From Marivirga aurantiaca (GTDB lineage: Bacteria; Bacteroidota; Bacteroidia; Cytophagales; Cyclobacteriaceae): 64,000 bases of DNA. Shown in pieces: positions 1,124 through 16,564 of this stretch (positions are counted from its first letter, which is position 1; each line of letters starts with the position of its first letter). Under the pieces are notes generated by a model. The model saw only the letters and a list, made by a program, of their open reading frames with translations, ran no database searches and had not been told where the DNA came from. The translations under genes were made by a program, and so were the position numbers. The stretch covers positions 124,001 to 188,000 of the forward strand of contig NZ_JAEQBW010000002.1 in assembly GCF_016679925.1 (NCBI RefSeq), given 5' to 3'.

Positions 1124-1140
1124 GTCGGGGTGACTGGATT
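1124..1140. repeat. Second, imperfect att-like copy
   Basis: The sequence matches the 17-bp att core at 15 of 17 positions; the two differences fall where the tRNA T stem would be. It is preceded by its own terminator hairpin. It may be the end of an earlier or nested integration, or the island's own core carried from a different tRNA gene. The 111 bases between the two copies contain no gene I can support. Confidence 0.5.
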
Positions 1141-1378
1141 ACAACCACCCCACGCAAATCTTTATGTATCAGTAAGTTACAAGAACGTATTTCAGCGGGT
1201 TCACCGTTCAGTTCTCAATTTATTCGAACTGGTTTGAGTGCATTTGGTGAACTCCGAAACCTTTGTAAATATACAAAAAAGCCTACGTTTTGGGTTCAAA
1301 TCGTGGCAAAAAGTGCTAAAATTTATTGGCAAAGAGTCATAGATTTTAGTGCCGTTTGACTGCCTTCATCTGGCAAGA

Positions 1379-1579
1379 TCAATCGGTGATGTAACGCTCA
1401 ACAATGGCCGGTGCAAGGCCGGTGAACTCGCAAAATTCATCTATGCTGATGAACTGATGCGGTTCTTTGGAAAGCTCCTCCCTGATCTTGTTTAGGAGCT
1501 TTCTTCCGTAACGCTCGCTCATGCCCGTGATTCGCTGCACGTCTTTTGGATAGATACAGGCTCTTTTGGTTTCAATCAT
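1379..1579 (-). CDS. Small helix-turn-helix protein, excisionase-like
   Basis: This 66-residue protein has a helix-turn-helix-like start (YPKDVQRITGMSERYGRKLLNKIREEL) and a second helical half ending in GLAPAIVERYITD. It is the size of the small DNA-binding proteins found near the ends of Bacteroidota elements, some of which act in excision. The upstream region carries a tandem 10-bp repeat (1585-1594, 1596-1605) that could be an autoregulatory operator, with a TATATTTA -7-like element further upstream. It stands first at the left end, pointing outward. Excision control is an inference. Confidence 0.6.
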   Translation of the reverse strand: MIETKRACIYPKDVQRITGMSERYGRKLLNKIREELSKEPHQFISIDEFCEFTGLAPAIVERYITD

Positions 1580-1584
1580 ACTTT

Positions 1585-1605
1585 ATCTATGCTTCATCTA
1601 TGCTT
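1585..1605 (-). promoter_or_regulatory. Tandem direct repeat before the small HTH gene
   Basis: ATCTATGCTT occurs twice with an 11-bp period, 6 bases upstream of the HTH start codon at 1579. Spacing of one helical turn suits a dimeric DNA-binding protein. An autoregulatory site is inferred. Confidence 0.4.
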
Positions 1606-1770
1606 TTGGTGTACTGTAAATATAGGAAATGCCATTGGCAGTTCATTTTGAACCAATCGGAATAAACGGTATCCAATGTTCCTATGCGGAACCTGTCTTT
1701 TGTCTTCCCTCCTGATTTATCTGATTTTCGGTGAGTTGCAACGAAGCAACAAATCAAAATTTCAAATGAT

Positions 1771-2544
1771 ATGGCAAGACAAGCTGGGATTATCAAGTTG
1801 AAGGGCAAGGTCGGTGACATGTCCTTTTACAAAACTAGAGATGGCTACCTGGCCCGTGAAAAGGGCGGGGTGGACAAGGAACGGATCCAGAACGATCCGG
1901 CTTTTCAGCGTACCCGCGAAAACGGTGCTGAGTTTGGCCGTGCCGGTGCAGCCGGACGGACTTTGAGAACGGCCTTCAGGCCGCTTCTTCTGCGAACCTC
2001 TGATAGCCGGTTGACCTCCAGGCTGACCAGGGAAATGGTGAAGGTCATCAAAGCGGATGCAACCAGTTCCCGGGGAGAACGGAACGTTCTCGATGGTGAA
2101 CTGGAGCTTTTGCAGGGCTTTGAGTTCAATGCAAACGGTCGCTTGGGAGCTACCATGTATGCACCATTCGATGTAAGCATTGACCGGGCAACAGGTGAAG
2201 CTGTAGTGAATGTGCCGGGCTTTGTGCCCCAGAATACCATCGCTGCACCTCAAGGTGCTACGCACCTGAAATTCGTCTCTGCAGGTGCGGAGATTGATTT
2301 TGAGTCGGATGACTTCACGCTGGTGACATCCGAAAGCGGTGAGATTGCGATCGGCCCACAGGCCGAAGCGGCTGTAAGCTTGACCAATGCTTTGCCCGCT
2401 AACAGTACTAAACCCCTATTGTTGGCTTTTGGTGTAGAGTTCTACCAGGAAGTGAACGGGAGCTTTTACCCGTTGAAAAACGGGTCTTACAACGCCCTGG
2501 CGTTGGTGGCTATTGATGGTGCCCCTGCCGTTCAACAAACCTAA
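1771..2544 (+). CDS. Conserved Bacteroidota protein of unknown function
   Basis: This 257-residue protein has a basic N-terminus (MARQAGIIKLKGKVGDMSFY) followed by GYLAREKGGVDKERIQNDPAFQRTREN. I recognise this layout from uncharacterised proteins in Bacteroidota genomes but know no function. The first half is Arg-rich and helical; the second half is Ala/Gly/Val-rich and probably beta. There is no signal peptide. It is the first gene of a plus-strand cassette with a DUF5675 protein and two small membrane proteins, opposite to almost everything else in the island. A structural or exported-particle role is possible but not shown. Confidence 0.7.
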   Translation: MARQAGIIKLKGKVGDMSFYKTRDGYLAREKGGVDKERIQNDPAFQRTRENGAEFGRAGAAGRTLRTAFRPLLLRTSDSRLTSRLTREMVKVIKADATSSRGERNVLDGELELLQGFEFNANGRLGATMYAPFDVSIDRATGEAVVNVPGFVPQNTIAAPQGATHLKFVSAGAEIDFESDDFTLVTSESGEIAIGPQAEAAVSLTNALPANSTKPLLLAFGVEFYQEVNGSFYPLKNGSYNALALVAIDGAPAVQQT

Positions 2545-2555
2545 TCCAGATTCGG

Positions 2556-2963
2556 ATGGAATTGATTCTGACAAGAAACTATCATCCGGAGGGAACGAGT
2601 GGTAGCCTGTTCGATGGGGAGCAGCTGGTTTGCTCCACTATCGAACTTCCCTGGAGGGAAAACCAGCGAATGGTGTCGTGCATCCCGGAAGGGAGGTATG
2701 AGCTTGTAAAGCGATATACCAAAAAACGGGGCTGGCACTTGCTGGTAAAAAATGTGCCCAACAGAAGCGGCATCCTCTTTCACCCCGCCAATGATGCCCT
2801 GAAGGAACTGAAGGGTTGTATAGCCCCGGTTTCACAAGTTGTTGGCCCAGGTAAAGGGACGCAATCCAAAATTGCCGATTCCAAGCTGAAAACCCTTGTG
2901 TTTGAGGCCATGGAAAGAGGCGAAAGTGTATTTCTCATTATTCAAAAAGCAAAAATCGTATGA
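2556..2963 (+). CDS. DUF5675 family protein
   Basis: The 135-residue sequence fits DUF5675: an N-terminal strand, then CSTIELPWRENQRMVSCIPEGRYELV, VPNRSGILFHPAND, and GCIAPVS near residue 90. These match the family pattern of a conserved E-P-W, a C-I-P-x-G-x-Y turn, and an H near the GC-I motif. The family is small, common in phages and Bacteroidota, and has no proven activity; a peptidoglycan-related role has been suggested by context. The stop overlaps the next start by four bases (ATGA), indicating co-translation with the small membrane protein downstream. Confidence 0.75.
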   Translation: MELILTRNYHPEGTSGSLFDGEQLVCSTIELPWRENQRMVSCIPEGRYELVKRYTKKRGWHLLVKNVPNRSGILFHPANDALKELKGCIAPVSQVVGPGKGTQSKIADSKLKTLVFEAMERGESVFLIIQKAKIV

Positions 2964-3190
2964 CAATCATAGAAAGGGCGAAAGCCCCAACCCCCAAGTT
3001 TTTCAGGGTGCTCCGTAATGTAGGTCTGGCACTAGCGGCAGCTGGTGGCGCTTTGTTGGCAGCACCGATCAGTTTACCAGTCGGAATAGTTGCTCTGGGC
3101 GGCTATCTCACCGTAGGCGGGACGGTACTGACTGCAGTCAGTCAAGTGACCGTAGAGGATAGCGCAAAAGCGGACAGGAAAGATGGCTAA
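2960..3190 (+). CDS. Small two-helix membrane protein, holin-like
   Basis: The 76-residue protein has a charged N-terminus and two hydrophobic segments (about residues 20-38 and 40-62), with a charged C-terminal tail. This size and topology resemble phage holins, but there is no family signature I can name. It overlaps DUF5675 by 4 bp and the next small gene by 8 bp, so the three are translated as a unit. Confidence 0.6.
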   Translation: MTIIERAKAPTPKFFRVLRNVGLALAAAGGALLAAPISLPVGIVALGGYLTVGGTVLTAVSQVTVEDSAKADRKDG

Positions 3191-3392
3191 CCTGGTAAGC
3201 GGAGGTGGCACGAAGGCAGGAACTGCCGGAGGCACGTTGCTGAGTGTCCTGGTGAATATCAGCTCCGGGGATATCCTCCACACCTGTGTGTTAGCTGCTG
3301 TTGGAGCGATAGTGAGCTTTACCGTGTCCATTCTGCTAAAGGTGTTATTCCAACGGTTCAAAAGAAAACATCCACCTCCGAAGGGGATGTGA
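3183..3392 (+). CDS. Small membrane protein, holin-like
   Basis: The 69-residue protein has a Gly/Thr-rich start, a hydrophobic stretch (about residues 30-56) and a basic tail (RFKRKHPPPKG). It overlaps the previous small membrane gene and is followed by a strong hairpin terminator, closing the cassette. The function is unknown; the pair of tiny membrane proteins after DUF5675 recalls a lysis module. Confidence 0.55.
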   Translation: MANLVSGGGTKAGTAGGTLLSVLVNISSGDILHTCVLAAVGAIVSFTVSILLKVLFQRFKRKHPPPKGM

Positions 3393-3429
3393 TTCCCGCA
3401 AGTCGGGAAAGTTTGTGTTCCTCTCAATG

Positions 3430-3456
3430 AAAAGGCCTCCTCATGGGGCCTTTTTT
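3430..3456. terminator. Bidirectional hairpin terminator
   Basis: AAAAGGCC and GGCCTTTT arms around a 9-base loop are followed by further T residues on the plus strand. It lies between convergent genes and can serve both. Confidence 0.75.
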
Positions 3457-3878
3457 CATTCCAGGAGTATCTGAAAAATGATGGCTCTCTTGACCTGCTT
3501 TACCAGCTCTACCTGCTTTTGCAGGATCTTAGCTTTCTTCTCAAAGTCCTGAAGGAGTGCCAATGACTTTAGGTACTTCCTACGGTCTTTCAAGGCCTTT
3601 TCCTGCCCTGCCAGCAATACCGCTCTGGCATCACCTATCCTGATGAATGGGACAACAGAACCGGTCAGGTGTGGCATAAACGCCTGTGCCTGCCAAAGAC
3701 CGTAAGAGAGCCAGAAATAAAAGTTCCGTGCCTCCTCCGATTCTGTGGTGATGGTGAAGCAATTGGGACAAGGGGTTTCGAGCGGCTTTCCCGCATTCAG
3801 TCCTTTGGAAAGCATGAAAAAGTGAGGCTTTACCGTGGTTAGTCCATCCCTGTAAGTTTTCATCTGGAAATTGTGCAT
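3456..3878 (-). CDS. Hypothetical protein, DUF6943-like
   Basis: The 140-residue protein opens with MKTYRDGLTTVKPHFFMLSKG (from the internal Met at residue 6), then GKPLETPCPNCF, a central aromatic region and a basic helical C-terminus. It resembles short proteins of Bacteroidota mobile elements that I associate with DUF6943, without full certainty. The CPNC pair could bind metal. The start could be 3878 or 3863. There is no signal peptide and no known function. Confidence 0.55.
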   Translation of the reverse strand: MHNFQMKTYRDGLTTVKPHFFMLSKGLNAGKPLETPCPNCFTITTESEEARNFYFWLSYGLWQAQAFMPHLTGSVVPFIRIGDARAVLLAGQEKALKDRRKYLKSLALLQDFEKKAKILQKQVELVKQVKRAIIFQILLE

Positions 3879-4142
3879 AGTACGAGCATTTAAAGTTTAG
3901 CTCGCTCCGCTTCGCACACATTTCAAAAGAGAAAAGAAAAAAGGGAAAAAAAGAAAAGAGAAAGCCTTTGGTCAGGTGGGCATGGACAGGGCAGTCAAGG
4001 TTTTTTGGAAAAATACTACCCGCCAGTTGGCGGGTGGAGATTTTTTTAAAAACCCGCAGGGCTTGACCTTGACGGTCCTGATCAGGGTTGGCCTTGTGGG
4101 GCCCGCCTAACTTAGCTGCACTCTTTGTTTTGTTCTAATTGG
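3879..4142. other. Non-coding stretch with hairpins, possible transfer or replication origin
   Basis: No gene is visible. The stretch has a long purine-only run (about 3929-3965), a perfect hairpin ACCCGCC-agtt-GGCGGGT followed by a T run (about 4017-4048), and GC-rich short inverted repeats around 4050-4110. Such regions often carry oriT in Bacteroidota elements, but no relaxase gene is adjacent, so this is only a suggestion. Confidence 0.25.
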
Positions 4143-4760: not shown

Positions 4761-5592
4761 AACTGTGGCAATGGTTAACTGTGGGATTTAATTTAGTGCG
4801 GGAACGCAGGAAAACCAAAAACGGCTGGCCGGAGGCTGTGGAGCGCAGCGTAATGGACGAACGGCCAAGCCAGCCGGAGAGAGGAACGAACGGAGGCTTG
4901 CGAGCCGTCCTGCGAGTGGAGCAAGGGGGCCAGACCGGAAAGCTGTGAGGAACGAACAGTGGGGGATGGCTATGTGAGTAGTGGAATGCAGGGCTTTTGT
5001 ATTTTGACTTTCGACAAAAGCCCGGAATGGAACGGAACTACACAAGGGCTGGCGAGATTTTTTGCTTTGAGCGTTGGGAAGGTATAAGCGATTGCCTGTG
5101 TGGTGGGATACCATGCGTTGGTGCAAAAAGCATGACAGCCTGCAGCCCGCAGCGACCCGCAGGCGAGCAAAAACACGGGCAGCCGGTGGATGCGTTGCGG
5201 CTGAGCGGAACGAAGCGAAAGCGGAGAGCAGAGAAGCGGCAAGAGCAGACAGAGTAGGCTGCCGTGAGGATGACAACCGAGTTGCAAGCAGCATGACAGG
5301 CTCGGAGCTTCAGCGGAGACCGTAAGGCAACACAGCTTATTTTTTGACCAATAAAAGACAAACACTTTCAAAAAATGGGCTGTGGTGGCCTGGCATGATG
5401 CTATGCCGAGGGCGATAGACGAACACCGCTTTTCCTGCGTGGGGTTTGAGCGTTGGGAAAAGCAAGTGTGGCGCGGTATGAAATGGAGCAAAGCGGAATG
5501 CAATAGCGGGCTACTCTTGCTGTGCGGTGCTGGAAGCTTGTGAGTGCAGCGCAGCGGAATGAGCAGGCTGGAGGCACATGGGTATGGGGAGG
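4761..5592. ncRNA. Unexplained purine-rich non-coding stretch, possible structured RNA
   Basis: About 0.8 kb has no convincing gene. The plus strand is rich in A and G and full of variants of GCGGAAYGAAGCG, GGAACGAAC and GCGCAGCG. A 15-bp direct repeat TTTGAGCGTTGGGAA occurs at 5066-5080 and 5445-5459, and short inverted repeats such as GGCT-tgcg-AGCC (about 4890) are frequent. The long minus-strand open frames here (168 and 208 codons) have Ser/Cys/Leu/His-rich composition typical of chance translation. A transcribed RNA is an inference; it could also be decayed sequence. Confidence 0.35.
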
Positions 5593-6267
5593 TCACCCGT
5601 AAATGTCATCGAACCCTGAGTAATTTTTGTGTCCTTTTCCCTTATTGATCCTGCCCTGTTTTGTGTTGTCAATACGCTTTTGAAGGAATAGACATAACGA
5701 CTCAAATTGTGTTTCGGGGATCTGATAGGCACTTGCCTTAAATTCCTTTTTGATGATACCCCAAATGGCAGCATAATTCATTTTGGATTTGCCAACATCG
5801 CCTTCCTTGTATTCGTTATAACGATCGATTAAATGCTTAATGTAGTTCTTTAGCTCAGCTTTTTTGCCAATGGCCCCATCGGCAAATTCCATCTTTGGTT
5901 TGCTTCGAGATTTATAGACAATTGTCTGTGCACTGATCGAATTGGCCACAGTAGAATTAGCCACATTGCCTTTGATGTTGATGGTATTTGATGATTTTGC
6001 ATTGGCTTTGCCTTTAGCCTTTAACGTGAGATAGTTCTTGATTTGCCTCACTTCCTCCTCGCTAATGTCACCTTTGGTGATTTTGGAATGGCAAATCGGG
6101 CAAATCATCAAAAGGTTCTCAGAAGCATTGTTTTCCGGATTTTCGTCAATATGATGAATTTCAAAATGGTCAACATTTGAATCATCACAGATTGGACACT
6201 GGGAGTTAATCTCTTGTTGTAAAAGAGCTTTAGTTTTTTGGGGTATGGATTTTCGAGTCTTGGTCAT
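5593..6267 (-). CDS. HNH endonuclease-domain protein
   Basis: The 224-residue protein has an HNH fold at residues 24-62: CPIC, then FEIHHIDENPENN, then NLLMICPICH. The four Cys would bind a structural zinc, and H38/H39, the Asn and H60 match the catalytic layout. The middle (about residues 90-115) has a NTINIKGNVANST-type beta-repeat, and the last 90 residues form an unknown helical domain. It is the last gene of the five-gene operon, 7 bp after the receiver-domain gene. It is probably the DNA-cutting effector of the system; the target and trigger are unknown. Confidence 0.8.
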   Translation of the reverse strand: MTKTRKSIPQKTKALLQQEINSQCPICDDSNVDHFEIHHIDENPENNASENLLMICPICHSKITKGDISEEEVRQIKNYLTLKAKGKANAKSSNTINIKGNVANSTVANSISAQTIVYKSRSKPKMEFADGAIGKKAELKNYIKHLIDRYNEYKEGDVGKSKMNYAAIWGIIKKEFKASAYQIPETQFESLCLFLQKRIDNTKQGRINKGKGHKNYSGFDDIYG

Positions 6268-6274
6268 AACGAAT

Positions 6275-7525
6275 TCAATTTATATTCCAATCTCTCACCA
6301 ATGTATGAACAGCAGGCGTACCCACCCTTCCAAGGTGTGAGATGTATCGTTGCCTAAGCTGTTGAATGAAAGGGGAATTTACCTTGAATTTTCTCGGTCT
6401 AATTTTTATTCGTTCCTGAAGGGTTTTCGAATTGATCTTGATAGAATCGGTTGTAAAATCAATGACACAACCCTTATTAAGATCATCTGATAATAGAGGC
6501 AGAGAAGGAAAAAAGTGAAGACTTTGCATGACCTGAAAGAAAATACTCTTTTTATTTTTCTTCACGTGATCCAGCTTAAGTATCTCTTCAAGTGAGTTGT
6601 GGGAAAACTTTAAAAGATCGAAGCTCAATTCCTTGTTGGTCTTTACTTTTTTTATGTCACATTCTGGGGTAATTATTATGCCAAACACATTGTCCTCTAT
6701 TTCACAAATATCTCCTGTCATCAATGGAGCGTCAGGTTTAAGTTCAGAGTAGTGTAGTCGGCTGAACAGTTTAGATAATGACTTTTTCTTGTCGTCCGAG
6801 TCATTTGTTTCAATTTGTCGATCACCTTCATTTTTTAATGCTTCAATTAAACCTGCGTTTTGAACCAAGGACTCAGAGAGTATCAACTGTAAAAGTTCTA
6901 TGACAAAAAGTTCAGGATCAACTCCGTCACCCTGCGCTGATTTATAAATTTCTAATATCCAATCCTTTTCAGCCTCGGAAAGCTCTTTGAATATTTGCTG
7001 GATTGATTCATTAATTGCAACTGTCCATTTAAGAGGTAAGGATAGATTTTTATTAGATTCCTTCCATTCATCAATGCCTTCCAATATTTTCTTTTTGAAT
7101 TCAGACACTCTATCCGTAGTGAAACTCTCATCCTTCTTTTCGATAATAATCCTATTGCCAAATTTCTCACGAAGAGCCTGACCGTAGGTTTCTTCTATAT
7201 CCTTTTCTGAGAAGATATAAATGAGTGAATAAAAATTGTTGGTTAAAAGAAAGTCGTATGCAGCATCTTCTTTTTGTGCAGTTGTAATTGATATTTTTCC
7301 AGCCCCTAATTCCTCGGCAATGTCTTCAAAACTATCATCTTGGGAATATTGCCAATCTAAAACAACTGCGCTAAAGGTGCCAATTGATTGGACTGCCTTG
7401 CTGGCAAGCTCTAATGATTGAACACCTAGCACCGGAAGATCCGACCGTAAAGATTCAAATAAAGCTCTCTCAGGGCGGTTTTCTGAGTAGATATGATCGT
7501 CAGCAAATAAAACAACTCCTTCCAT
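6275..7525 (-). CDS. Receiver (REC)-domain protein with unknown C-terminal domain
   Basis: The first 130 residues look like a response-regulator receiver domain: VLFADD gives the acidic pair D9/D10, AVVLDWQ gives the phospho-acceptor D57, SLIYIFSEKD supplies the Ser after beta-4, and IIIEKKD the Lys after beta-5. No DNA-binding output domain follows. Instead there are about 280 residues with a motif GDICEIEDNVFGIIITPECDI near residue 265 and a basic end. It begins one base after the stop of the dual-ATPase gene, so the two should be made together and probably interact by phosphotransfer. Confidence 0.75.
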   Translation of the reverse strand: MEGVVLFADDHIYSENRPERALFESLRSDLPVLGVQSLELASKAVQSIGTFSAVVLDWQYSQDDSFEDIAEELGAGKISITTAQKEDAAYDFLLTNNFYSLIYIFSEKDIEETYGQALREKFGNRIIIEKKDESFTTDRVSEFKKKILEGIDEWKESNKNLSLPLKWTVAINESIQQIFKELSEAEKDWILEIYKSAQGDGVDPELFVIELLQLILSESLVQNAGLIEALKNEGDRQIETNDSDDKKKSLSKLFSRLHYSELKPDAPLMTGDICEIEDNVFGIIITPECDIKKVKTNKELSFDLLKFSHNSLEEILKLDHVKKNKKSIFFQVMQSLHFFPSLPLLSDDLNKGCVIDFTTDSIKINSKTLQERIKIRPRKFKVNSPFIQQLRQRYISHLGRVGTPAVHTLVRDWNIN

Positions 7526-7526
7526 G

Positions 7527-9731
7527 CTACTTTTCTTCTTTTTTAAACTTAATGATGAAATTGGCTCCCTTTAGAATTCTTAAATTGGGGTTGGTTATGA
7601 GGGAAATTTCAGCATCAATCCTATCAAGTAACTCTTTGACGATGTATAGGCCCAATCCCCTGCCTTCAGATTTCTTTGTATAAAATTCTGTGAATATCAG
7701 ATCTTCTATATCCTCTGGAATGCCAGGGCCAGTATCGGCAAAAATTACAGTGTTATCATCTTCATTAAAAACAATACTAATCTGTTTGTCCTTATCTGAT
7801 AATTGCTCCAGCCAATAAATGGAGTTATCCATGAGGTTGAGGATGACTTGAAGAATTAGTCCTGTATTCGTCTTTACCACTATGTCCTTATTGGAATCTA
7901 GATTCACCTTGATCTTTCCTTCAAGCTCTTTCCTGAAATATTTTATAACCCTCTCGGTAACATTTCGGACGCTTACATCCTTGGTTACTTTTCTGGCCAC
8001 CCGAAACAGTGGCTGGAGTACCTGCAACTCCTGGTACAGAAACTCTAAGTTTTCCTGAAGCTCTACTAAAAAATCCCTGAGTTCCTTGGATTGTATTTTC
8101 CCTTTATCAAAGCGATTGACAAAATCTTCAGTATTGACTTTCAACCTTTTCAAGAGTGACATGGTATCGTGGGTTGCCTTTTCGACAGCCATGCCGGTAC
8201 CGGCCAATTCTTGGGTGATTTTCAAGTCCTCACGAACCTTTTGTATCAGATTGTTGGTGGCATTGAAGAATTTCTTAGAGCGGTCAATTAATTCTGCATC
8301 ATCATATTCTAGCAGTTTCTTTTGAAGGGTGTTGTAACTTTCTTCATAAGATTTGCTGAGGGATTTTATTGCCTTCTGCTTTTTTAATTCCTCCTTTTTG
8401 CGGTCAATGTCGACCTTTGTTTTCATGACTTTTAGAACGGTCTGAACTAGTGCTATAAAGTCGTCCTTAGCTCCATTGATATTCATCAAACCTTCTCTGT
8501 CAGCTGCATCACGGAGTTTTGGGTTCTCATCTTGAGTAATAAAAACAAAACCAAGAAGATCATTATATGTAAAATAATCACCTGCCTTCAACTCTCCCCT
8601 TGATTTACTTAGCTTGAGCCAATCATCACCAATCTCACCGTAAGGATATACCCTAATATTGTCTCGATATAAGTAAACTGAAGTTTCCTTCAGAAACTCA
8701 ATCTCGTCTTTTGTCAATGCTGGATCACGTAAATCATAGGCATAGAAGAAAAACATAAAACCACCAATTTCCGGCTTACGGATTTCTACGATTTCCTTCT
8801 TATCGTATTTGAGAAATTGATCTCTATAGGCTTTTAAGCTCCTTATTCCAGATGATATAATGTCCAATTCATCTTCAAATAGATTAAATTGGATATTAAC
8901 TGTCGATTTGTTATGCGTATAGATTGCATCTAAATTGCCATGGCTATCAAGCATTCCTTCAAAATAATAAGGTGCCAAATCAGAAATTTCATCAAACCTT
9001 TTATAAGTTTTTGGCGGTTTCCGGTGATCCCAGATAACTTCATATTGGAAGTCTTCTGGAATGCTTAGCCCAGGTAGCTTAGGCGGTTTCATTCTGAAAA
9101 AAGCCTTATCTAGTTTTATTAAATCCTCAAACTTCCAATCACTCCTAATATCAGAGATTCTGATAAGTGTACCTTGTTCTTTAGCATTAATGATTTTTTC
9201 AGGCTTATCGTTGACTTCCCATTTATTCAAAATCTCATGTAAATACTTGTCTTGATGTTCACTTTCCTTGAACTCATCATCTGCATAATCATGAAAGTCC
9301 AATGTCAATTTTACTTCACCAGTTGATTTAGTCTTACTGTAAACCTCAACATAATCCCCAAGCTTATAAATCGCAAAGCGACCAACTCCTTTATCCCCTT
9401 GCATTACCCGGCCCTTTTCAGTGAATCTTTTGTCACCAGCCTTTTTTTTGTTGAGTTTGTTTGGTGTAGCTGGCTTCATCCAGACATCCAGTATGGTATC
9501 GATATTCATACCATGTCCGTCATCCTCAATTTCTATTGTTGGCTTTGCAGAAGCACTAGGATTGTCAAAATTCAAAAATCTTACAATTACTTTCTCTGCA
9601 TCAGCATCGTAGCTGTTCTTCACCAATTCAATTACTCCTACCCATTTATCACTGATAAGCTGGTCACCTAATACGCTAATCAGACGGGCATACGCCTGAA
9701 ATGGGGTCTCACCTGACTTTATTATTGCCAT
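7527..9731 (-). CDS. Dual GHKL ATPase (MORC/Hsp90-like plus histidine-kinase-like)
   Basis: The 734-residue protein carries two ATP-binding GHKL modules. The N-terminal one has ELVKNSYDADA (35-45), EDDGHGM (69-75) and QGDKGVGRFA (111-120), the Hsp90/MutL/MORC pattern. A coiled coil (about 435-520) leads to EKATHDTMS, whose His near 521 sits where a kinase phospho-acceptor would. The C-terminal module has ILNLMDNS (about 630), ADTGPGIP (about 665) and GRGLGLY (about 690), the histidine-kinase pattern. Iyer, Abhiman and Aravind (2008) described MutL/MORC-type ATPases in restriction-modification loci. Spacing to both neighbours is one base. Confidence 0.8.
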   Translation of the reverse strand: MAIIKSGETPFQAYARLISVLGDQLISDKWVGVIELVKNSYDADAEKVIVRFLNFDNPSASAKPTIEIEDDGHGMNIDTILDVWMKPATPNKLNKKKAGDKRFTEKGRVMQGDKGVGRFAIYKLGDYVEVYSKTKSTGEVKLTLDFHDYADDEFKESEHQDKYLHEILNKWEVNDKPEKIINAKEQGTLIRISDIRSDWKFEDLIKLDKAFFRMKPPKLPGLSIPEDFQYEVIWDHRKPPKTYKRFDEISDLAPYYFEGMLDSHGNLDAIYTHNKSTVNIQFNLFEDELDIISSGIRSLKAYRDQFLKYDKKEIVEIRKPEIGGFMFFFYAYDLRDPALTKDEIEFLKETSVYLYRDNIRVYPYGEIGDDWLKLSKSRGELKAGDYFTYNDLLGFVFITQDENPKLRDAADREGLMNINGAKDDFIALVQTVLKVMKTKVDIDRKKEELKKQKAIKSLSKSYEESYNTLQKKLLEYDDAELIDRSKKFFNATNNLIQKVREDLKITQELAGTGMAVEKATHDTMSLLKRLKVNTEDFVNRFDKGKIQSKELRDFLVELQENLEFLYQELQVLQPLFRVARKVTKDVSVRNVTERVIKYFRKELEGKIKVNLDSNKDIVVKTNTGLILQVILNLMDNSIYWLEQLSDKDKQISIVFNEDDNTVIFADTGPGIPEDIEDLIFTEFYTKKSEGRGLGLYIVKELLDRIDAEISLITNPNLRILKGANFIIKFKKEEK

Positions 9732-9732
9732 A

Positions 9733-11019
9733 TTACTTTCTTGCTATTAAAATGTACTCCTCAGGATAAACCAGTTTGCTATTCTTATTATCCAACTTTG
9801 AAAATCTACCAGACTTTTTATCTCGTATTGTAGGGATCAATTTGTTTGGAATAGAGCGCTTAATGATATCTACAATCTCAAAACCTTGCATGGTGAGGAT
9901 TTCTGCAAAGACTTCAGATGATTTAATTTTCACATCCATCAATGTCGTATTACCGATCACAATACAAGCGTGACCTCCAGCCCGTAGTACCCGGAACATT
10001 TCCTTTCCTACTGAAAGCATATCGTTAAAATAATTAGCAACTTCTTTTGCTGTGCGCTTGTCCATTTCAAGCAGATTATTAACTATTTCCTGTCCTATAA
10101 ATGATGGTGTACTAGTCTCTTGATTCAGAGAATAAAAAGTTCCGATGAACCCCTTTCTAAATCCGTACAGATCTGTTATATATTCATACCAATATCCCGT
10201 GAGTTGATGGATATCAGCGTACTCGTAGGAGGTGACATATGGGGGAGAAGTAATAATTGCTCCAACACTGTTTGAAGGTATGCTCGTATTTCTAGCATCT
10301 TCAAGTTTTATTTCACATTTTGTCGTGATAAAATGGCTGGTCTCAAGCTGTTCATAGAACTCTTTATTCTTCCTGGCCATTTGATTAACCTGGATGCGAA
10401 ATGCTTTGAACGGATCAACAGGACTCTTTTTAGGGTCAACTTGGGGCTTAGTGCTTGATTGTAACCATTTTGAACAATTCTTTAGGATGTTTGACAGAGC
10501 TACAAGAAAGAAGTCTCTGATTGATGTATTTTGCTCTTCTAATACTTGTTGATATAAGAATGCTATCTTTTGCTTGTGTTCGGGAAAAAACCAATAATCG
10601 ATTCTTTCATGAAGCTTGAGAGTTTTCGATTCAAAGCCACTGAATTTCTCGATTTTATTGAAGACTTTTTGGGTTGTACGTTGTAGCTCATCAGGGTGTA
10701 TAGGAGTCGTCTTTGCCTGAGTAATCAAAATGGCTACAGGGTTAATATCTACTCCAATAGAAGCCCGGCCATGAACTTTGGCTTCTACAAGAGTGGTTCC
10801 GCATCCTGCAAAGAGATCCGCAACCAAATCATTCTGATCTGTGTAATCCTCTATAAGCTTTTTCACCAGATTCGGTAGAAATTTTGCAGGGTATCGATGA
10901 TACCCATGTGTCCACTGTTCAGTTGAACGCACGTTTTTGAAGCACCATTCTGGGCTAACAGGGATTTCCTGGAACTTTCGTCTAATATCGGTGATAGGAT
11001 TATGTATGGCAGTAGTCAT
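9733..11019 (-). CDS. Site-specific DNA methyltransferase (N4-cytosine or N6-adenine)
   Basis: The 428-residue protein has the SAM-binding motif DLFAGCGTTLVEA (68-80) and the catalytic motif TSPPY (257-261), typical of amino-methyltransferases; SPPY fits N4-cytosine or N6-adenine. HGYHRYPAKFLP near residue 40 is also found in related enzymes. The region between the two motifs (about 105-250) would hold target recognition. The start overlaps the XRE gene stop by four bases, and the dual ATPase gene follows one base after its stop. It probably marks host DNA for protection. Its recognition sequence cannot be read from the sequence. Confidence 0.85.
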   Translation of the reverse strand: MTTAIHNPITDIRRKFQEIPVSPEWCFKNVRSTEQWTHGYHRYPAKFLPNLVKKLIEDYTDQNDLVADLFAGCGTTLVEAKVHGRASIGVDINPVAILITQAKTTPIHPDELQRTTQKVFNKIEKFSGFESKTLKLHERIDYWFFPEHKQKIAFLYQQVLEEQNTSIRDFFLVALSNILKNCSKWLQSSTKPQVDPKKSPVDPFKAFRIQVNQMARKNKEFYEQLETSHFITTKCEIKLEDARNTSIPSNSVGAIITSPPYVTSYEYADIHQLTGYWYEYITDLYGFRKGFIGTFYSLNQETSTPSFIGQEIVNNLLEMDKRTAKEVANYFNDMLSVGKEMFRVLRAGGHACIVIGNTTLMDVKIKSSEVFAEILTMQGFEIVDIIKRSIPNKLIPTIRDKKSGRFSKLDNKNSKLVYPEEYILIARK

Positions 11020-11228
11020 TTTCGTTTCGTTGGATTTAATAAGTCACGGATATCAACGTTGAGTACTTTAGCAACCTGATGAAGGGTTTCGAGAGAGGGC
11101 TGAATCTCATTGGTACACCAACGGGATACTGTGGATTCACTTTTGCCCAACTGCTCTGACAGCCACTTGTTTGTTCGGTTTAGCTCTGCTAAAACTACTT
11201 TAAGACGATTTATTGCTATTTTGCTCAT
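11016..11228 (-). CDS. XRE-family helix-turn-helix regulator
   Basis: From the Met at 11228 the product is 70 residues: MSKIAINRLKVVLAELNRTN, a helix-turn-helix with KWLSEQLGKSESTVSRWC, and a tail with VDIRDLLNPTKRK. This start is preferred over the open frame up to 11300 because a consensus promoter lies at 11247-11276. The layout resembles the controller proteins of restriction-modification systems that set the timing between methylase and nuclease. It overlaps the methyltransferase start by four bases. Confidence 0.8.
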   Translation of the reverse strand: MSKIAINRLKVVLAELNRTNKWLSEQLGKSESTVSRWCTNEIQPSLETLHQVAKVLNVDIRDLLNPTKRK

Positions 11229-11246
11229 ATTGATTAGCATCTCATG

Positions 11247-11276
11247 CAAATATATTGAGTTAAATGAAACCGCCAA
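11247..11276 (-). promoter_or_regulatory. Promoter of the methyltransferase-ATPase-HNH operon
   Basis: On the minus strand TTG (11276-11274) is followed after exactly 19 bases by TATATTTG (11254-11247). This is a perfect match to the Bacteroidota sigma-A consensus TTG-N19-TAnnTTTG. The start codon at 11228 is 18 bases further on. Confidence 0.75.
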
Positions 11277-11296
11277 GTAAATGCCAAATAATCTGC

Positions 11297-11959
11297 TCAC
11301 ACCCTCTTATCCTTCGCTTCCTTCTCAAAAGCAATCACGTTCATCATCTCCCTTAATCTGCTTCTAACCCGATTTCCATAGCAGTTTTCAATTTCGCTGG
11401 CAGAAAGGTTGGTGGTGGCGTGTGTGATCATGTGCCGGCTAATGAACATGTCGTAGCGACTGAGGAGGATTTCGGCCAGCACATTTGTTTCGTTTCCATA
11501 ATATTTGATGTTGGACTCTACACCCAGATCATCAAAGCAATAGGCTTTCGGGCACAGCTCTCCACCTGTCTGCTGGAAGGCTGCTTTGGAGTATTTGTTG
11601 ATGACTGAATAGCCATCCTGAATGAATTCCAGCGTAATATCCCGTGTGGACTTGATGAGATATTGCTCTTTGGGTGCGAGCATGAAGCGAAGCAGGGTCA
11701 TCAGGGAGGTTTTGCCACAACCGACCGGACCGGTCAGCAGGATGCCTTTGTGTAAGTCAATGCCGTGCTTTTCAGCATTGGGTTTGTCCTGGTAGAAGTA
11801 GACCAGAAGTTTGAATATAATCAAGTGGTCTTCCTTCCATATCCGGAATTTTGGACTGGTGTAGGCCTTGCCTGCTTTCTCCAGAAATTCAAGGCATTTG
11901 TCGAATTGGATGATGTTGCTTTGAACACTCTCTGAGCAAGACTTAGAGTGGCTCGCCAT
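11297..11959 (-). CDS. DnaC-like AAA+ ATPase
   Basis: The product has Walker A GPVGCGKTS (about residues 77-85 from the chosen start), Walker B YCFDDLG and a sensor region THATTNLS, the pattern of DnaC/IstB-type helicase loaders. The ending NRVRSRLREM also fits that group. The open frame reaches 12037, but the Met at 11959 gives only a 17-bp overlap with the upstream gene. Together with the DnaD-like protein before it, it suggests a replication-initiation pair that could maintain the excised circle. The partner helicase would be the host's. Confidence 0.75.
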   Translation of the reverse strand: MASHSKSCSESVQSNIIQFDKCLEFLEKAGKAYTSPKFRIWKEDHLIIFKLLVYFYQDKPNAEKHGIDLHKGILLTGPVGCGKTSLMTLLRFMLAPKEQYLIKSTRDITLEFIQDGYSVINKYSKAAFQQTGGELCPKAYCFDDLGVESNIKYYGNETNVLAEILLSRYDMFISRHMITHATTNLSASEIENCYGNRVRSRLREMMNVIAFEKEAKDKRV

Positions 11960-13090: not shown

Positions 13091-13939
13091 CTATTTCTCA
13101 TCAGCTTCATCCATTCTGCGGATAAGGCTTTCATGCAGGGAATCGAGGAATTTCGTCCTTCCTGTCTTTCTGATACGTATTTCGAGGAATGTGCGGTGGT
13201 ATTGTCCTAAATCAACTCCAAAAGTGTCTTCCATACATTTGGAAATTTCTTTCAAGTCTGCTCTACCATGGTTAAAAACCCCACGGGCATGGAGGGCGTA
13301 CATCAGCTCAATCAACGCTACTTTGGAGTCTGTCCATGTTATTTTCACCTTCGGTTCGACTTGTGATTTTCCGTTGTTTAAATCTGTCAAGCTCAGCTTG
13401 TTCAACTCATCTTCCAGATAGACATTGAGCAGGTCATTGGCCAGGATGTTGGAAACCTTAAAATCATGGCTAGTTGAGAAGTTCGGGTCAGTTTCAAAGA
13501 AGAAAGAATCAAGCGTTAACCTTATGTCCTGTTTGCCCCTTACAAAATATTTGTGATCCAGGTAATTGCTGTGAGTACGGTAATAGCGGTAAAATTCCAG
13601 ATTGTCATCAAAATATCGTTTCAGTTTGTCCAGTTCATTCTGATAGTATTTGCGTCTTACTTTGATACCTCCATTGGGCTTGTTGGTTTCAATGTTGAAC
13701 ACACTAAGATGGTAGATGAGCTTACTGACGAATTTCGGTTTGATCTCCTTGAAAAACAGGATTTCGCTAGCTTGAGAATCTAATGGGTTTTTAGTCAAGC
13801 CCTCCCTTAACTGGTTAATGGCAATCAGGACCATTTGAAAGCTCTGTTCAGATTTTTTGAGGAGGTTATCTTCCTCCAAATCGATCATTCTAAGCTTTTC
13901 TTCTAAATCTTCATATAGTTGGTTATAGTTATCAGACAT
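13091..13939 (-). CDS. rteC: RteC-family regulator
   Basis: The 282-residue protein matches RteC: helical N-terminus, KFVSKLIYHLSVFNIE near residue 90, RYYRTHSNYLDHKYFVRG near 125, and a C-terminal segment WTDSKVALIELMYALHARGVFNHG followed by a helix-turn-helix-like end. In CTnDOT, RteC activates the excision operon. Here no RteA/RteB sensor pair is present, so its input must differ. It stands between the maintenance genes and the metal cargo, reading toward the left end where the excision functions lie. Confidence 0.85.
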   Translation of the reverse strand: MSDNYNQLYEDLEEKLRMIDLEEDNLLKKSEQSFQMVLIAINQLREGLTKNPLDSQASEILFFKEIKPKFVSKLIYHLSVFNIETNKPNGGIKVRRKYYQNELDKLKRYFDDNLEFYRYYRTHSNYLDHKYFVRGKQDIRLTLDSFFFETDPNFSTSHDFKVSNILANDLLNVYLEDELNKLSLTDLNNGKSQVEPKVKITWTDSKVALIELMYALHARGVFNHGRADLKEISKCMEDTFGVDLGQYHRTFLEIRIRKTGRTKFLDSLHESLIRRMDEADEK

Positions 13940-13983: not shown

Positions 13984-15933
13984 TTACTTTTGCATCCTCA
14001 CCGCATTCAATATTGCCAGTAGTGCCACTCCCACATCGGCAAATACGGCTTCCCACATAGTGGCCAGGCCTCCGGCACCCAAGGCAAGGACTATGACTTT
14101 TACACCGAAAGCCAGGCCGATATTTTGCCATACGATCCGTTTAGTCTGTTTACCTATTTGAATAGCAGTAGCAATTTTAGAGGGCTGGTCGGTCTGAATG
14201 ACCACATCGGCTGTCTCGATGGCGGCATCACTACCCAAACCACCCATTGCCATGCCCACATCTGCCAGAGCAAGGACGGGAGCATCGTTGATACCGTCCC
14301 CCACAAAAGCGATGATACGGTTGGTATCCTTTTTCAGTTCTTCAACCTTTTCCACCTTTTGTTCCGGTAACAGATCACCAAAGGCTTTATCTATTCCGAG
14401 TGATTTTGCCACTTGTTGGGTCACTGCATTCTTGTCTCCTGACAGCATGATCAGTTCCCGAACTCCTGATTTGTGTAATGCATTGATTGCCTGGGCAGCA
14501 TCCTCTTTGAGTTCATCTGCTATCACCAGGTAACCGGCATATTTTTGGTCAACGGCTATATGGATGACGGTATTAACCTCTCCGGCAGCATCAGCACAGG
14601 TAACGATCCCCTCCTTGTCCATCAGCTTTTGATTGCCGATGAGCACATGCTTACCATTTACTTTTCCTTTCAGACCGTGCCCGGCTATTTCTTCCTGTTG
14701 CTCGGGTTCTGAAATTTCTTTGCCTTGCTTTTTAGTATATTCTGTAATGGCTTTTGCGATGGGATGGGTGGATTTGCTTTCCATAGCAGCCGCCAGACTA
14801 AGCCAATCTGTAGTAATTCCGTCCATGGTCACGGCTTTCTGAACTTCAAACACTCCCTTGGTCAACGTACCTGTTTTGTCCATCACCACGGTGTTCACTC
14901 TGGTCATGAGGTCAAGAAAGTTGGAACCTTTGAATAATATGCCTTTGCGGGAAGCTGCCCCAATCCCTCCGAAATAACCAAGTGGAATAGAAATGACAAG
15001 CGCACAGGGACATGAGATCACCAAAAAGATTAATGCCCGGTAAAGCCAGTCTTCAAACACATAGTTTTCTACAAAAAAGTAAGGCAGGAAGGTCAATCCC
15101 ACTGCCAGAAAGGTAACAATGGGTGTGTAAACCCGTGCAAACTTACGGATGAACTGCTCGGTTTTTGCCTTGCGGGCGGTGGCGTTCTGCACCAGCTCCA
15201 AGATGCGGGCAAGTGAACTTTCGTTGAACCGTCTGGTTACTTTCAGCTCAATCAGCCTGTCGAGATTCACCATCCCAGCCAGCACATTTTCTCCTTTGTT
15301 GTAGGTGGCAGGTTTACTTTCACCAGTCAGGGCGGAAGTATTGAAGCTGCTTTTTTCACTGATCATTTCCCCATCGAGCGGTACTTTTTCTCCGGGTTTC
15401 ACCTGTATGGTTTCCCCAATTTGTACTTCTTCCGGGTGTACGGACACCATTTGCCCGCTTCTATATACAGAGGCCGAATCCGGGCGTATGTCCAGCAGGG
15501 CTTTGATGTTGCGTTTGGCCCTGTTCACTGCTGCATCCTGAAACAGCTCCCCGATGGCATAGAAAAGCATCACCGCCACCGCCTCAGGATATTCGCCTAT
15601 GGCAAAAGCTCCCAGAGTGGCTATGCCCATGAGGAAAAATTCAGTGAACACATCACCTTTCAGTATGGACTTCCAGCCTTTGACCAATACCGGCCAACCC
15701 ACAGGCAAATAGGCCAGCACATACCAGCCTATGCGGATCCATCCCTGGAAAAATGCAGGCTGTCCCCATTGATCAGCGGCTATTCCTGCAAGCAGAATGA
15801 CAAGGCTTACAATACCACTTCCCCAGGTTTGCAGGAAACTGGAGGAGGTTTTTTCCTCCTGCTTTTTTGGTTTGTCCGGATGCTGGTCGGTGCTGCAGCA
15901 GGCTTTGTTGTCTATATTGTTAGTATTAGTCAT
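13984..15933 (-). CDS. zntA: Zn/Cd/Pb-transporting P1B-type ATPase (ZntA/CadA-like)
   Basis: Motifs include a short N-terminal Cys pair (KACCSTDQ) instead of an HMA domain, TGES at the actuator, the membrane CPC motif (SCPCALVIS), DKTGTLT (phosphorylation Asp), HP (STHPIAKA) and GDGINDAP. The last helix pair (FADVGVALLAILNAVR) is typical of the Zn2+/Cd2+/Pb2+ subgroup. The Met at 15933 is chosen because the longer frame to 15981 would overlap the upstream gene by 35 bp. It exports metal from cytoplasm to periplasm, where the CzcBA-CzcC pump can remove it. It is the last gene of the czc-type operon. Confidence 0.9.
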   Translation of the reverse strand: MTNTNNIDNKACCSTDQHPDKPKKQEEKTSSSFLQTWGSGIVSLVILLAGIAADQWGQPAFFQGWIRIGWYVLAYLPVGWPVLVKGWKSILKGDVFTEFFLMGIATLGAFAIGEYPEAVAVMLFYAIGELFQDAAVNRAKRNIKALLDIRPDSASVYRSGQMVSVHPEEVQIGETIQVKPGEKVPLDGEMISEKSSFNTSALTGESKPATYNKGENVLAGMVNLDRLIELKVTRRFNESSLARILELVQNATARKAKTEQFIRKFARVYTPIVTFLAVGLTFLPYFFVENYVFEDWLYRALIFLVISCPCALVISIPLGYFGGIGAASRKGILFKGSNFLDLMTRVNTVVMDKTGTLTKGVFEVQKAVTMDGITTDWLSLAAAMESKSTHPIAKAITEYTKKQGKEISEPEQQEEIAGHGLKGKVNGKHVLIGNQKLMDKEGIVTCADAAGEVNTVIHIAVDQKYAGYLVIADELKEDAAQAINALHKSGVRELIMLSGDKNAVTQQVAKSLGIDKAFGDLLPEQKVEKVEELKKDTNRIIAFVGDGINDAPVLALADVGMAMGGLGSDAAIETADVVIQTDQPSKIATAIQIGKQTKRIVWQNIGLAFGVKVIVLALGAGGLATMWEAVFADVGVALLAILNAVRMQK

Positions 15934-15946
15934 ACGCTTGTCTGTT

Positions 15947-16564
15947 TTAATGTGTGAAAAAGGAAATGATGCCCGTGACAATGAGGATGCACCCCGAAAC
16001 CAGCCCGGTATTATGCTCCAGCCTGTGCCAGTTGAAACGGTGCAGGCCTTTCTGGGCGAGGTACACCCAAAAGGTGATCCCTAACACGGAAACGATGGTG
16101 TAGAGCAAGCCCACGGTCAGGATCATCGGCCATCCATGAGTCCCTGCCATCAGAAAGTAGGCTTCAATTTCCAGGCAGGGGGAAAGAAACATCATAAATA
16201 CCAGCAAGGTCACTACTTGTGTTGCTCCGGCCTGGTCCAGCTTTTGCTTTTCATTGAAGTGAAAATGATGGTGTCTGTGGTGTTGGATGATGAAATAGAA
16301 CCCTATGGCAATGAGCAAAGCAGGAATGACCCAACGGGTGTAACTGTTAAGCGTTTCTGCCAGTGAAAGGCTGAATAAGCCCAGAAACACGCCCAACAGA
16401 AAGGTACTCAGCGAATGAGCCAGAGCTGCCATAGCCGCAATGCGAACCGTCTTGCTACCTTGCCAGCCAAACCGTTCTTTCAGTGCCAGCACAAGCAACC
16501 AATGGCTGGGGATCAGACCGTGCAGGAGACTGAGCATGATGGTACCGGTGAGTAAGGTGGTCAT
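15947..16564 (-). CDS. NicO/RcnA-like membrane metal transporter
   Basis: The 205-residue protein has about six membrane helices, an early motif SLLHGLIPSHWLLVLAL and a cytoplasmic His loop (HHRHHHFHFNEK). The His loop and the helix motif recall the NicO/RcnA and UreH-like metal transporters that export nickel or cobalt. Placement between the P-type ATPase and the Fur regulator supports a metal-efflux role. The actual ion is not determinable here. Confidence 0.7.
   Translation of the reverse strand: MTTLLTGTIMLSLLHGLIPSHWLLVLALKERFGWQGSKTVRIAAMAALAHSLSTFLLGVFLGLFSLSLAETLNSYTRWVIPALLIAIGFYFIIQHHRHHHFHFNEKQKLDQAGATQVVTLLVFMMFLSPCLEIEAYFLMAGTHGWPMILTVGLLYTIVSVLGITFWVYLAQKGLHRFNWHRLEHNTGLVSGCILIVTGIISFFTH

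Follow-up and report, generated by a model that had tools for sequence, protein, structure and literature searches.

A four-gene methyltransferase, dual GHKL kinase and receiver cassette in a cargo slot of an integrative element of Marivirga aurantiaca, a candidate methylation-guarded phosphorelay

In a 64,000-nucleotide stretch of the Marivirga aurantiaca genome (contig NZ_JAEQBW010000002.1, forward strand, positions 124,001 to 188,000; hereafter the window, whose positions are used unless another locus is named), we identified a horizontally moved four-gene cassette that occupies one of the cargo slots of an integrative element and encodes an XRE/Cro-type regulator, a DNA methyltransferase, a kinase-like protein with two GHKL ATPase modules and a receiver protein. 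We see about an even chance that this cassette is a methylation-guarded phosphorelay of four genes with swappable effectors, the effector being fused here to the receiver. A fifth gene, encoding an HNH endonuclease-like protein and placed in the same unit by a preliminary description made from the sequence, seems to belong with the mobile element and not with the cassette. If the more general reading of such loci as a modular immune relay is true, the cassette would be a two-component system with missing DNA methylation as its input and toxicity at the level of the cell, instead of transcription, as its output. Two-component signalling is the standard sensing logic of bacteria, and restriction-modification (R-M) is the classic logic of self and non-self; a cassette joining both would make a phosphorelay reading of the absent methyl mark directly testable.

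The five genes lie head to tail on the minus strand between 5593 and 11300, with gaps of 7, 1 and 1 bp and one overlap of 4 bp; the preliminary description had read both the frames and their packing (at most 7 bp) correctly, and Pfam returned the families that its gene labels imply for all but the receiver. In the direction of reading, the regulator (11016-11300; HTH_26, E 6e-11, and HTH_3, E 1.5e-10) is followed by the methyltransferase (9733-11019; N6_N4_Mtase, E 6e-25), in which motif I (DLFAGCGTT) stands ahead of motif IV (TSPPY) and which we would place at family level, both the N4-cytosine and the N6-adenine type being possible. The kinase gene (7527-9731; HATPase_c_3, E 6e-18, and HATPase_c, E 4e-22) encodes a paraMORC-type GHKL domain (residues ∼10-160), a linker, a DHp helix with His521 and a HATPase_c domain (626-732). 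The receiver gene (6275-7525) encodes a receiver domain (residues 1-136), a helical linker (137-258) and a C-terminal output domain (259-416), and the HNH gene (5593-6267; Pfam HNH) comes last.

The unit exchanged between related elements comprises the first four genes. With the replication-like protein adjoining the cassette as query, a search of 390 genomes of the family yielded nine, including that of M. aurantiaca, that encode it at 81% identity or more. Three of the nine elements (G000, G056 and G349) hold the regulator, methyltransferase, kinase and receiver genes and then the HNH gene, and five (G311, G391, G032, G475 and G365) hold at the same site a Fic/DOC gene (Pfam Fic, E 2.5e-16 in the single copy examined) followed 3 bp on by an HNH gene whose product is 87-89% identical to that of the window. 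In the ninth (G460), the cargo is different and includes genes for AbiEii and Schlafen AlbA_2, and the HNH gene was not found in 12.5 kb of this element. Given that blastn matches to the window in loci L170, L176 and L177 stop at 6267, the first base of the HNH gene, and restart at 11297, where the ATPase gene upstream ends, we place the exchanged unit at 6268-11296, the interval missing where elements hold Fic; in L175, the match restarts at 11303. The four-gene block is ∼99.7% identical to its copy in G056 (12 to 16 differing bases in 5 kb), and the left flank (1136-4136) differs by ∼10% and the right flank by ∼4% up to 13.0 kb and by 13% further out. The cassette is near-identical in three genera. 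A separate acquisition of the block, suggested in the preliminary description, is thus borne out by its exchange as cargo, and the AT-richness noted there is real, if moderate: GC content is 37.7% in the block, 42.7% in the window and 45-47% in the element stretches measured, and 20 of 118 segments of equal size were as low. The HNH gene, at 39.1%, is nearer to the cassette than to the element.

Listed by locus, the alternative cargo behind the ATPase gene is Fic in L170, L171, L175, L176 and L177, and AbiEii, Schlafen AlbA_2 and a GHKL protein in L178; L179, a more distant relative, has apparent Vsr, C5 methyltransferase and GHKL genes close by. Matches to L157, L170, L171, L174, L175 and L177 begin at 1115-1136, which is probably one end of the integrative element.

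Methyltransferase, kinase and receiver genes are also kept together beyond these elements. Our locus set combined loci of bacterial genomes (the best 80 of at least 343 relatives) with 47 loci of viral contigs (127 loci) and, after plasmid, phage and related-genome loci were added, reached 155 loci, of which 151 had a kinase-like match; relatives occur on plasmids and viral contigs as well. In 119 of the 151 loci, a gene no more than three away from the kinase encodes a receiver, these receivers belonging to one connected profile family, and the remaining 32 include some with a gene that has a receiver-like start unlinked by profile and some whose matches resemble ordinary histidine kinases. 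In a kinase tree of 131 sequences (21 of the 151 kinase loci were dropped by length or score), the window falls in a clade of 16 with a support of 0.974, in which the window and its near-identical copy in G056 count as two. A methyltransferase of the same type stands directly 5' of the kinase in all 15 testable members (the sequence of L108 ends there, and the methyltransferase of L109 was detected by tblastn only), and a receiver is present in 15 of the 16. Of the five-gene set that the preliminary description had proposed, the methyltransferase, GHKL protein and receiver therefore stand, and the HNH gene does not: among the open reading frames of the 155 loci, the G056 copy was its sole relative.

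Within the clade, pairwise distances of kinase and receiver correlate best (r = 0.93), followed by those of kinase and methyltransferase (0.58) and of methyltransferase and receiver (0.45); over the same 13 members, 0, 0 and 2 of 5000 permutations, respectively, were as high. L029 carries a methyltransferase (7700-8971 of that locus) and a kinase (8971-11217) that are 70% and 34% identical to those of the window, a pairing that we read as a methyltransferase swap between cassettes. Given these correlations and the pairing in L029, the sequences point to a cognate kinase-receiver pair with the methyltransferase as the exchangeable part. Over 94 loci of the wider set, the immediate 5' neighbour of the kinase gene encodes a C5 methyltransferase in 34, an N6_N4 type in 15 and N6_Mtase in 12 (families counted separately). 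Conversely, among 395 genomes of the class, 16 were found to hold relatives of the window methyltransferase, at 17 places in all; the kinase lies in the ∼1.5 kb behind three of these, our own included, and given that the others stand beside other genes, the methyltransferase family extends beyond the cassette and was rejected as a marker of the system.

The M. aurantiaca genome holds a second system of the same class on contig C11 (L156, 5023-10197), with a Vsr-like gene, a C5 methyltransferase that PADLOC matches to DrmMII (E 2.9e-172), a dual GHKL kinase of 30% identity and a receiver.

The residues that a working His-Asp relay requires are nearly invariant in the proteins of this putative relay. 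His521 of the kinase is present in all 131 aligned sequences, each of the ten N-terminal GHKL residues examined is kept in at least 129 of them, and among the C-terminal residues examined, those of the N and G boxes are kept in 122 to 130, and Phe683 is Phe in 72 only. Over residues 518-709, the kinase can be aligned with a histidine kinase of solved structure (E 4e-11), His521 falling on the His of the latter; this match was obtained with the whole kinase, and the DHp region alone had no significant match in PDB. In the receiver family (81 sequences), Asp57 is kept in 80, Ser or Thr at 106 in 81 and Lys131 in 74, and position 9 is acidic in 81 and position 10 Asp in 72. His and Asp occur together in 79 of the 80 loci whose kinase and long receiver are both in these alignments; the other has Glu for Asp. 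The cassette shows features of two described groups, namely intact GHKL motifs in an R-M context, as in paraMORC proteins, and a kinase with N-terminal HATPase_c_3 and C-terminal HATPase_c, a conserved phosphoacceptor His and an adjacent receiver.

The receiver itself had no Pfam match at E ≤0.01. Response_reg_2 (PF19192) did not match it and matched 2 of the 81 family members, and Response_reg matched 16 of the 81. Nevertheless, the label given in the preliminary description is sound: against solved proteins, the family profile had a designed protein as its best row and natural response regulators from E 2e-10, and the AlphaFold model (mean predicted local distance difference test score, pLDDT, 86.8) was matched by receiver domains in Foldseek. 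The output domain has a conserved GD...TPxCD...RxG pattern and no Pfam family over the 81 receivers. In a Foldseek search of PDB with a separate model of residues 137-416 (pLDDT 87.4), 24 of the 50 listed matches (396 in total) had a probability of at least 0.6, and of these 24, 21 were titled MazF or MazEF and three toxin-antitoxin or endoribonuclease. Their template modelling scores were 0.51-0.72 by target and 0.25-0.32 by query, the latter being low because only about half of the query was covered. In a viral fold library, none of the matches listed exceeded a probability of 0.15. An assignment to a known nuclease was supported neither by Pfam nor by the fold search, and from the models, the output domain is probably MazF/PemK-like in fold and not a MazF.

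The genes behind the receivers suggest what such a domain may do. Excluding 10 of the 119 receiver loci with less than 300 bp behind the receiver, all 19 receivers that consist of the receiver domain alone (REC-only) are followed by a gene starting at most 12 bp behind or overlapping, compared with 34 of 90 long receivers that have a downstream gene within 30 bp. The P value of a Fisher test (1.5e-7) is overstated, given that 18 of the 19 REC-only receivers fall into four clades of the tree, about four lineages with one effector type each (L099 was left out of the tree by length). Read by eye, the 19 genes encode HNH proteins (8), proteins of metallo-beta-lactamase fold (7) and caspase-like proteins (4), the last label denoting an HG...SC pattern, with no caspase-like match returned by Pfam for any of these four. 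One HNH protein examined matches PtuB of Septu (E 7.5e-23), and one metallo-beta-lactamase protein examined matches LmuA (E 2e-12). Behind receivers of either kind, 75 genes lie on the same strand and at most 250 bp away, and among these Pfam found nine HNH (window lineage included) and six Lactamase_B matches. The place directly behind a bare receiver thus goes to an effector, and the fused domain of long receivers would most simply fill it. Within the window clade, a tight downstream gene occurs in two of the 14 loci listed, namely G056 (HNH) and L028, several loci having less than 0.9 kb there, and no nuclease gene is common to the members with downstream sequence.

A gene of ∼235-270 amino acids with an HPLYHLxFGG-like pattern follows the long receivers of L082 (12327-13136), L092 (12297-13055), L102 (4637-5350) and L138 (12431-13198), and genes of similar length follow the receivers of L083, L084, L105, L132, L139 and L140. 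The single one examined had no Pfam match; it is possible that genes of this type represent a further partner.

In the mechanism that we propose, the methyltransferase would mark self DNA and set the sequence specificity, as its family suggests, and the kinase, presumably soluble, would engage DNA or the methyltransferase via its N-terminal MutL/MORC-like GHKL domain. Unmarked DNA would then trigger the C-terminal kinase half, His521 would hand a phosphate to Asp57 of the receiver, and the receiver would free its own C-terminal MazF/PemK-like domain as the effector, probably acting on nucleic acid. In sister lineages with bare receivers, the neighbouring HNH, metallo-beta-lactamase-fold or caspase-like gene would act as the effector instead. 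A more general version, that these loci are a modular immune relay in which exchangeable methyltransferases feed a paraMORC-histidine kinase and the phosphorelay fires either a fused MazF-fold effector or a separate HNH, metallo-beta-lactamase-fold or caspase-like one, is offered as a tentative possibility.

Several observations weigh against this mechanism. The defence function is read from the neighbouring genes, and recognition of unmarked DNA is putative. L108 has a kinase and no receiver was found there. The best MazF fold match has an E-value of 0.021, and the top-ranked match is an unrelated protein of low probability. The link to MazF is structural: no sequence similarity was detected by hhalign against 29 PemK-family proteins, by Pfam over the 81 receivers or by a profile search of PDB sequences. 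The slot behind receivers also holds non-effectors, with eight C5 methyltransferases and three Vsr genes among the 75 genes, and since 34 of the 90 long receivers have a tight downstream gene as well, the fused domain is not always a replacement. The nearest relative, L028, has a 336-amino-acid gene without family behind its receiver; the protein had no Pfam or PADLOC match, and a PD-(D/E)xK appearance was noted by eye only. Finally, the HNH gene has a cassette-like low GC content and is packed 7 bp behind the cassette.

These last two features favour the arrangement put forward in the preliminary description, in which all five genes form one system and the HNH nuclease encoded next to the receiver is licensed by it. 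So do the presence of the HNH gene in all three cassette-holding elements, the occurrence of other HNH genes behind REC-only receivers in a sister lineage, and purifying selection, given that the window gene and its G056 copy differ at 56 of 675 bases with a nonsynonymous divergence (dN) of 0.029 and a synonymous divergence (dS) of 0.39. This selection marks the HNH gene as a working gene, but one that remains in the element through changes of cargo: the identity to G056 breaks at its start, and the same gene stands behind Fic in five of the nine elements. In four of the five Fic-carrying genomes, no methyltransferase relative was found at E 1e-5, and the fifth has one at 23% identity; an HNH nuclease restrained solely by the cassette methyltransferase should not persist there. 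In the 14 clade loci outside the window lineage, several of which end within 0.9 kb behind the receiver, no HNH relative was found, a protein scan of the viral contigs gave two partial ones, and across 291 genomes of the order, four, our own included, had one at E 1e-6 (one by its N-terminal part only). With so few relatives, the HNH protein was rejected as a conserved partner, as was the five-gene unit, given the Fic loci. Signalling through the receiver, part of the original proposal, retains the support of the phosphotransfer residues, but its licensed nuclease does not, since the HNH gene occurs in elements without the other four genes, and we consider the five-gene system quite improbable. 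The HNH gene seems to be a bystander here, and its GC content suggests that it may be an older acquisition itself. Likewise, the cognate endonuclease of a type II R-M system was not found, the HNH gene existing without the methyltransferase and the clade members with downstream sequence being without a common nuclease gene. Cloning all five genes could credit the system with effects of the element-borne HNH.

Three other explanations concern the four genes themselves. The kinase and receiver could form a transcriptional two-component regulator of an R-M locus, with an output domain that binds DNA or RNA and tunes the expression of methyltransferase and nuclease. This possibility is put forward in the available part of PMC8011034 and agrees with the two-component-like proteins and the HTH gene, but no DNA-binding output domain appeared in Pfam over the 81 receivers or among the confident fold matches, the 19 REC-only receivers lack any output domain and yet have effector-like genes directly behind them, and the clade members with downstream sequence do not share a nuclease gene; we regard such a regulator as unlikely. 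We judge it improbable that the cassette is primarily an addiction module of the mobile element, in which the methyltransferase would be lost once the element is gone, setting off the relay and killing the cell, phage defence being secondary. The position on an integrative element, the near-identity of the cassette in three genera, the relatives on plasmids and viral contigs and the modelled toxin-like output fold would suit this, as would the statement in the same part of PMC8011034 that R-M systems can act as selfish elements, but the AbiEii and Schlafen AlbA_2 genes in the same slot of G460 suit defence equally. A repair-type function, with the GHKL protein as a MutL-like clamp working with the methyltransferase and a kinase half that is regulatory only, appears highly improbable: many relatives do adjoin C5 methyltransferases and some Vsr genes, including the second copy in our own genome, but a motif search beside the clade members found neither, and the relay residues are invariant or nearly so.

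The proposed phosphorelay has relatives among described systems. PADLOC gave no system-specific model for the window proteins, only MTase_II, HTH and weak HNH or REase models; the statement that the set matches no named system therefore holds for such models but not for the kinase-receiver class as a whole, which was reported beside R-M genes in 2021. In the available part of that report, kinase-receiver pairs of HEF_HK and Response_reg_2 beside R-M genes are predicted as a possible two-component system, their neighbours include HNH, Vsr and N6/N4 methyltransferases, the kinases are described as soluble and the receivers as without other known domain (Bellieny-Rabelo et al., PMC8011034). The window cassette shares with this class, as described there, a kinase with HATPase_c_3, DHp and HATPase_c, an adjacent receiver-like gene and an upstream methyltransferase; unlike the class, its two proteins stay below the Pfam cut-offs for HEF_HK and Response_reg_2, HEF_HK (PF19191) reaching 15.4 against 24.1 bits (E 0.027) over residues 513-580 around His521. 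We found no discussion of effector replacement or cassette borders in the part of PMC8011034 available, and the cassette thus gives the class a proposed output side and corrected borders.

ParaMORC ATPases were described in R-M operons and linked to the kinase class, as far as the accessible text goes (Iyer et al. 2008, PMC2292703), and some carry a fused nuclease or HEPN domain, the HEPN fusion lying in R-M neighbourhoods, according to the accessible parts of PMC2292703 and PMC3710099. As in the cassette, their N-terminal GHKL ATPase is encoded alongside a DNA methyltransferase, and the HEPN fusion is a precedent for an RNA-directed output; in the window, however, the ATPase is joined to a histidine-kinase module and a separate receiver protein carries the output. 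In VapKSC/CapKS, as presented in the accessible portion of PMC13373217, a GHKL kinase frees the VapC toxin or controls an immune operon by phosphorylation, a precedent for toxin output; that portion describes serine phosphorylation of STAS proteins and no His-Asp relay, and mentions no methyltransferase. A 2026 figure legend names HATPase and REC among the domains of predicted, unvalidated defence systems (PMC13092281, legend text). The BbrUII/HgiDII restriction enzyme family (NCBIfam NF050001) shares the N-terminal GHKL domain (E 7e-18), but the match reaches 64 bits against a cut-off of 550 and is confined to residues 20-199. Detocs is a two-component-like phage defence system with a receiver-linked effector, and its likeness to the window cassette is one of description only. 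In the open-licence literature, we found no published description of a MazF-like receiver in an R-M cassette. New here are the receiver output domain with MazF-type fold matches and the effector-like gene directly behind each of the 19 receivers lacking it.

The regulator probably controls the cassette. Its start is more likely the ATG at 11228 than the GTG at 11300, and an HTH frame directly 5' of the methyltransferase is also present in L028, L031, L109 and L033 among 12 clade loci inspected. The single consensus promoter claimed in the preliminary description is not supported: sigma-70 sites in the window number 16, against 16.9 ± 4.0 in shuffled sequences, and the TTGGCG-16-TATATT ahead of the regulator is one of these 16. 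The place ahead of the regulator does fit what we take to be the Bacteroidota-type promoter box, as CTTG-19 bp-TATATTTG on the minus strand at 11247-11277, a candidate read from the sequence. Rfam found four tRNAs only in the window, none close to the cassette. Between the HNH gene and the next gene, 4788-5592 is without convincing genes or an Rfam match, and ∼90% identity is largely kept there in related elements. The same element also carries a P-type metal ATPase-like gene (13984-15981, labelled by eye), which adjoins an RteC gene (13091-13939; Pfam, E 3e-87).

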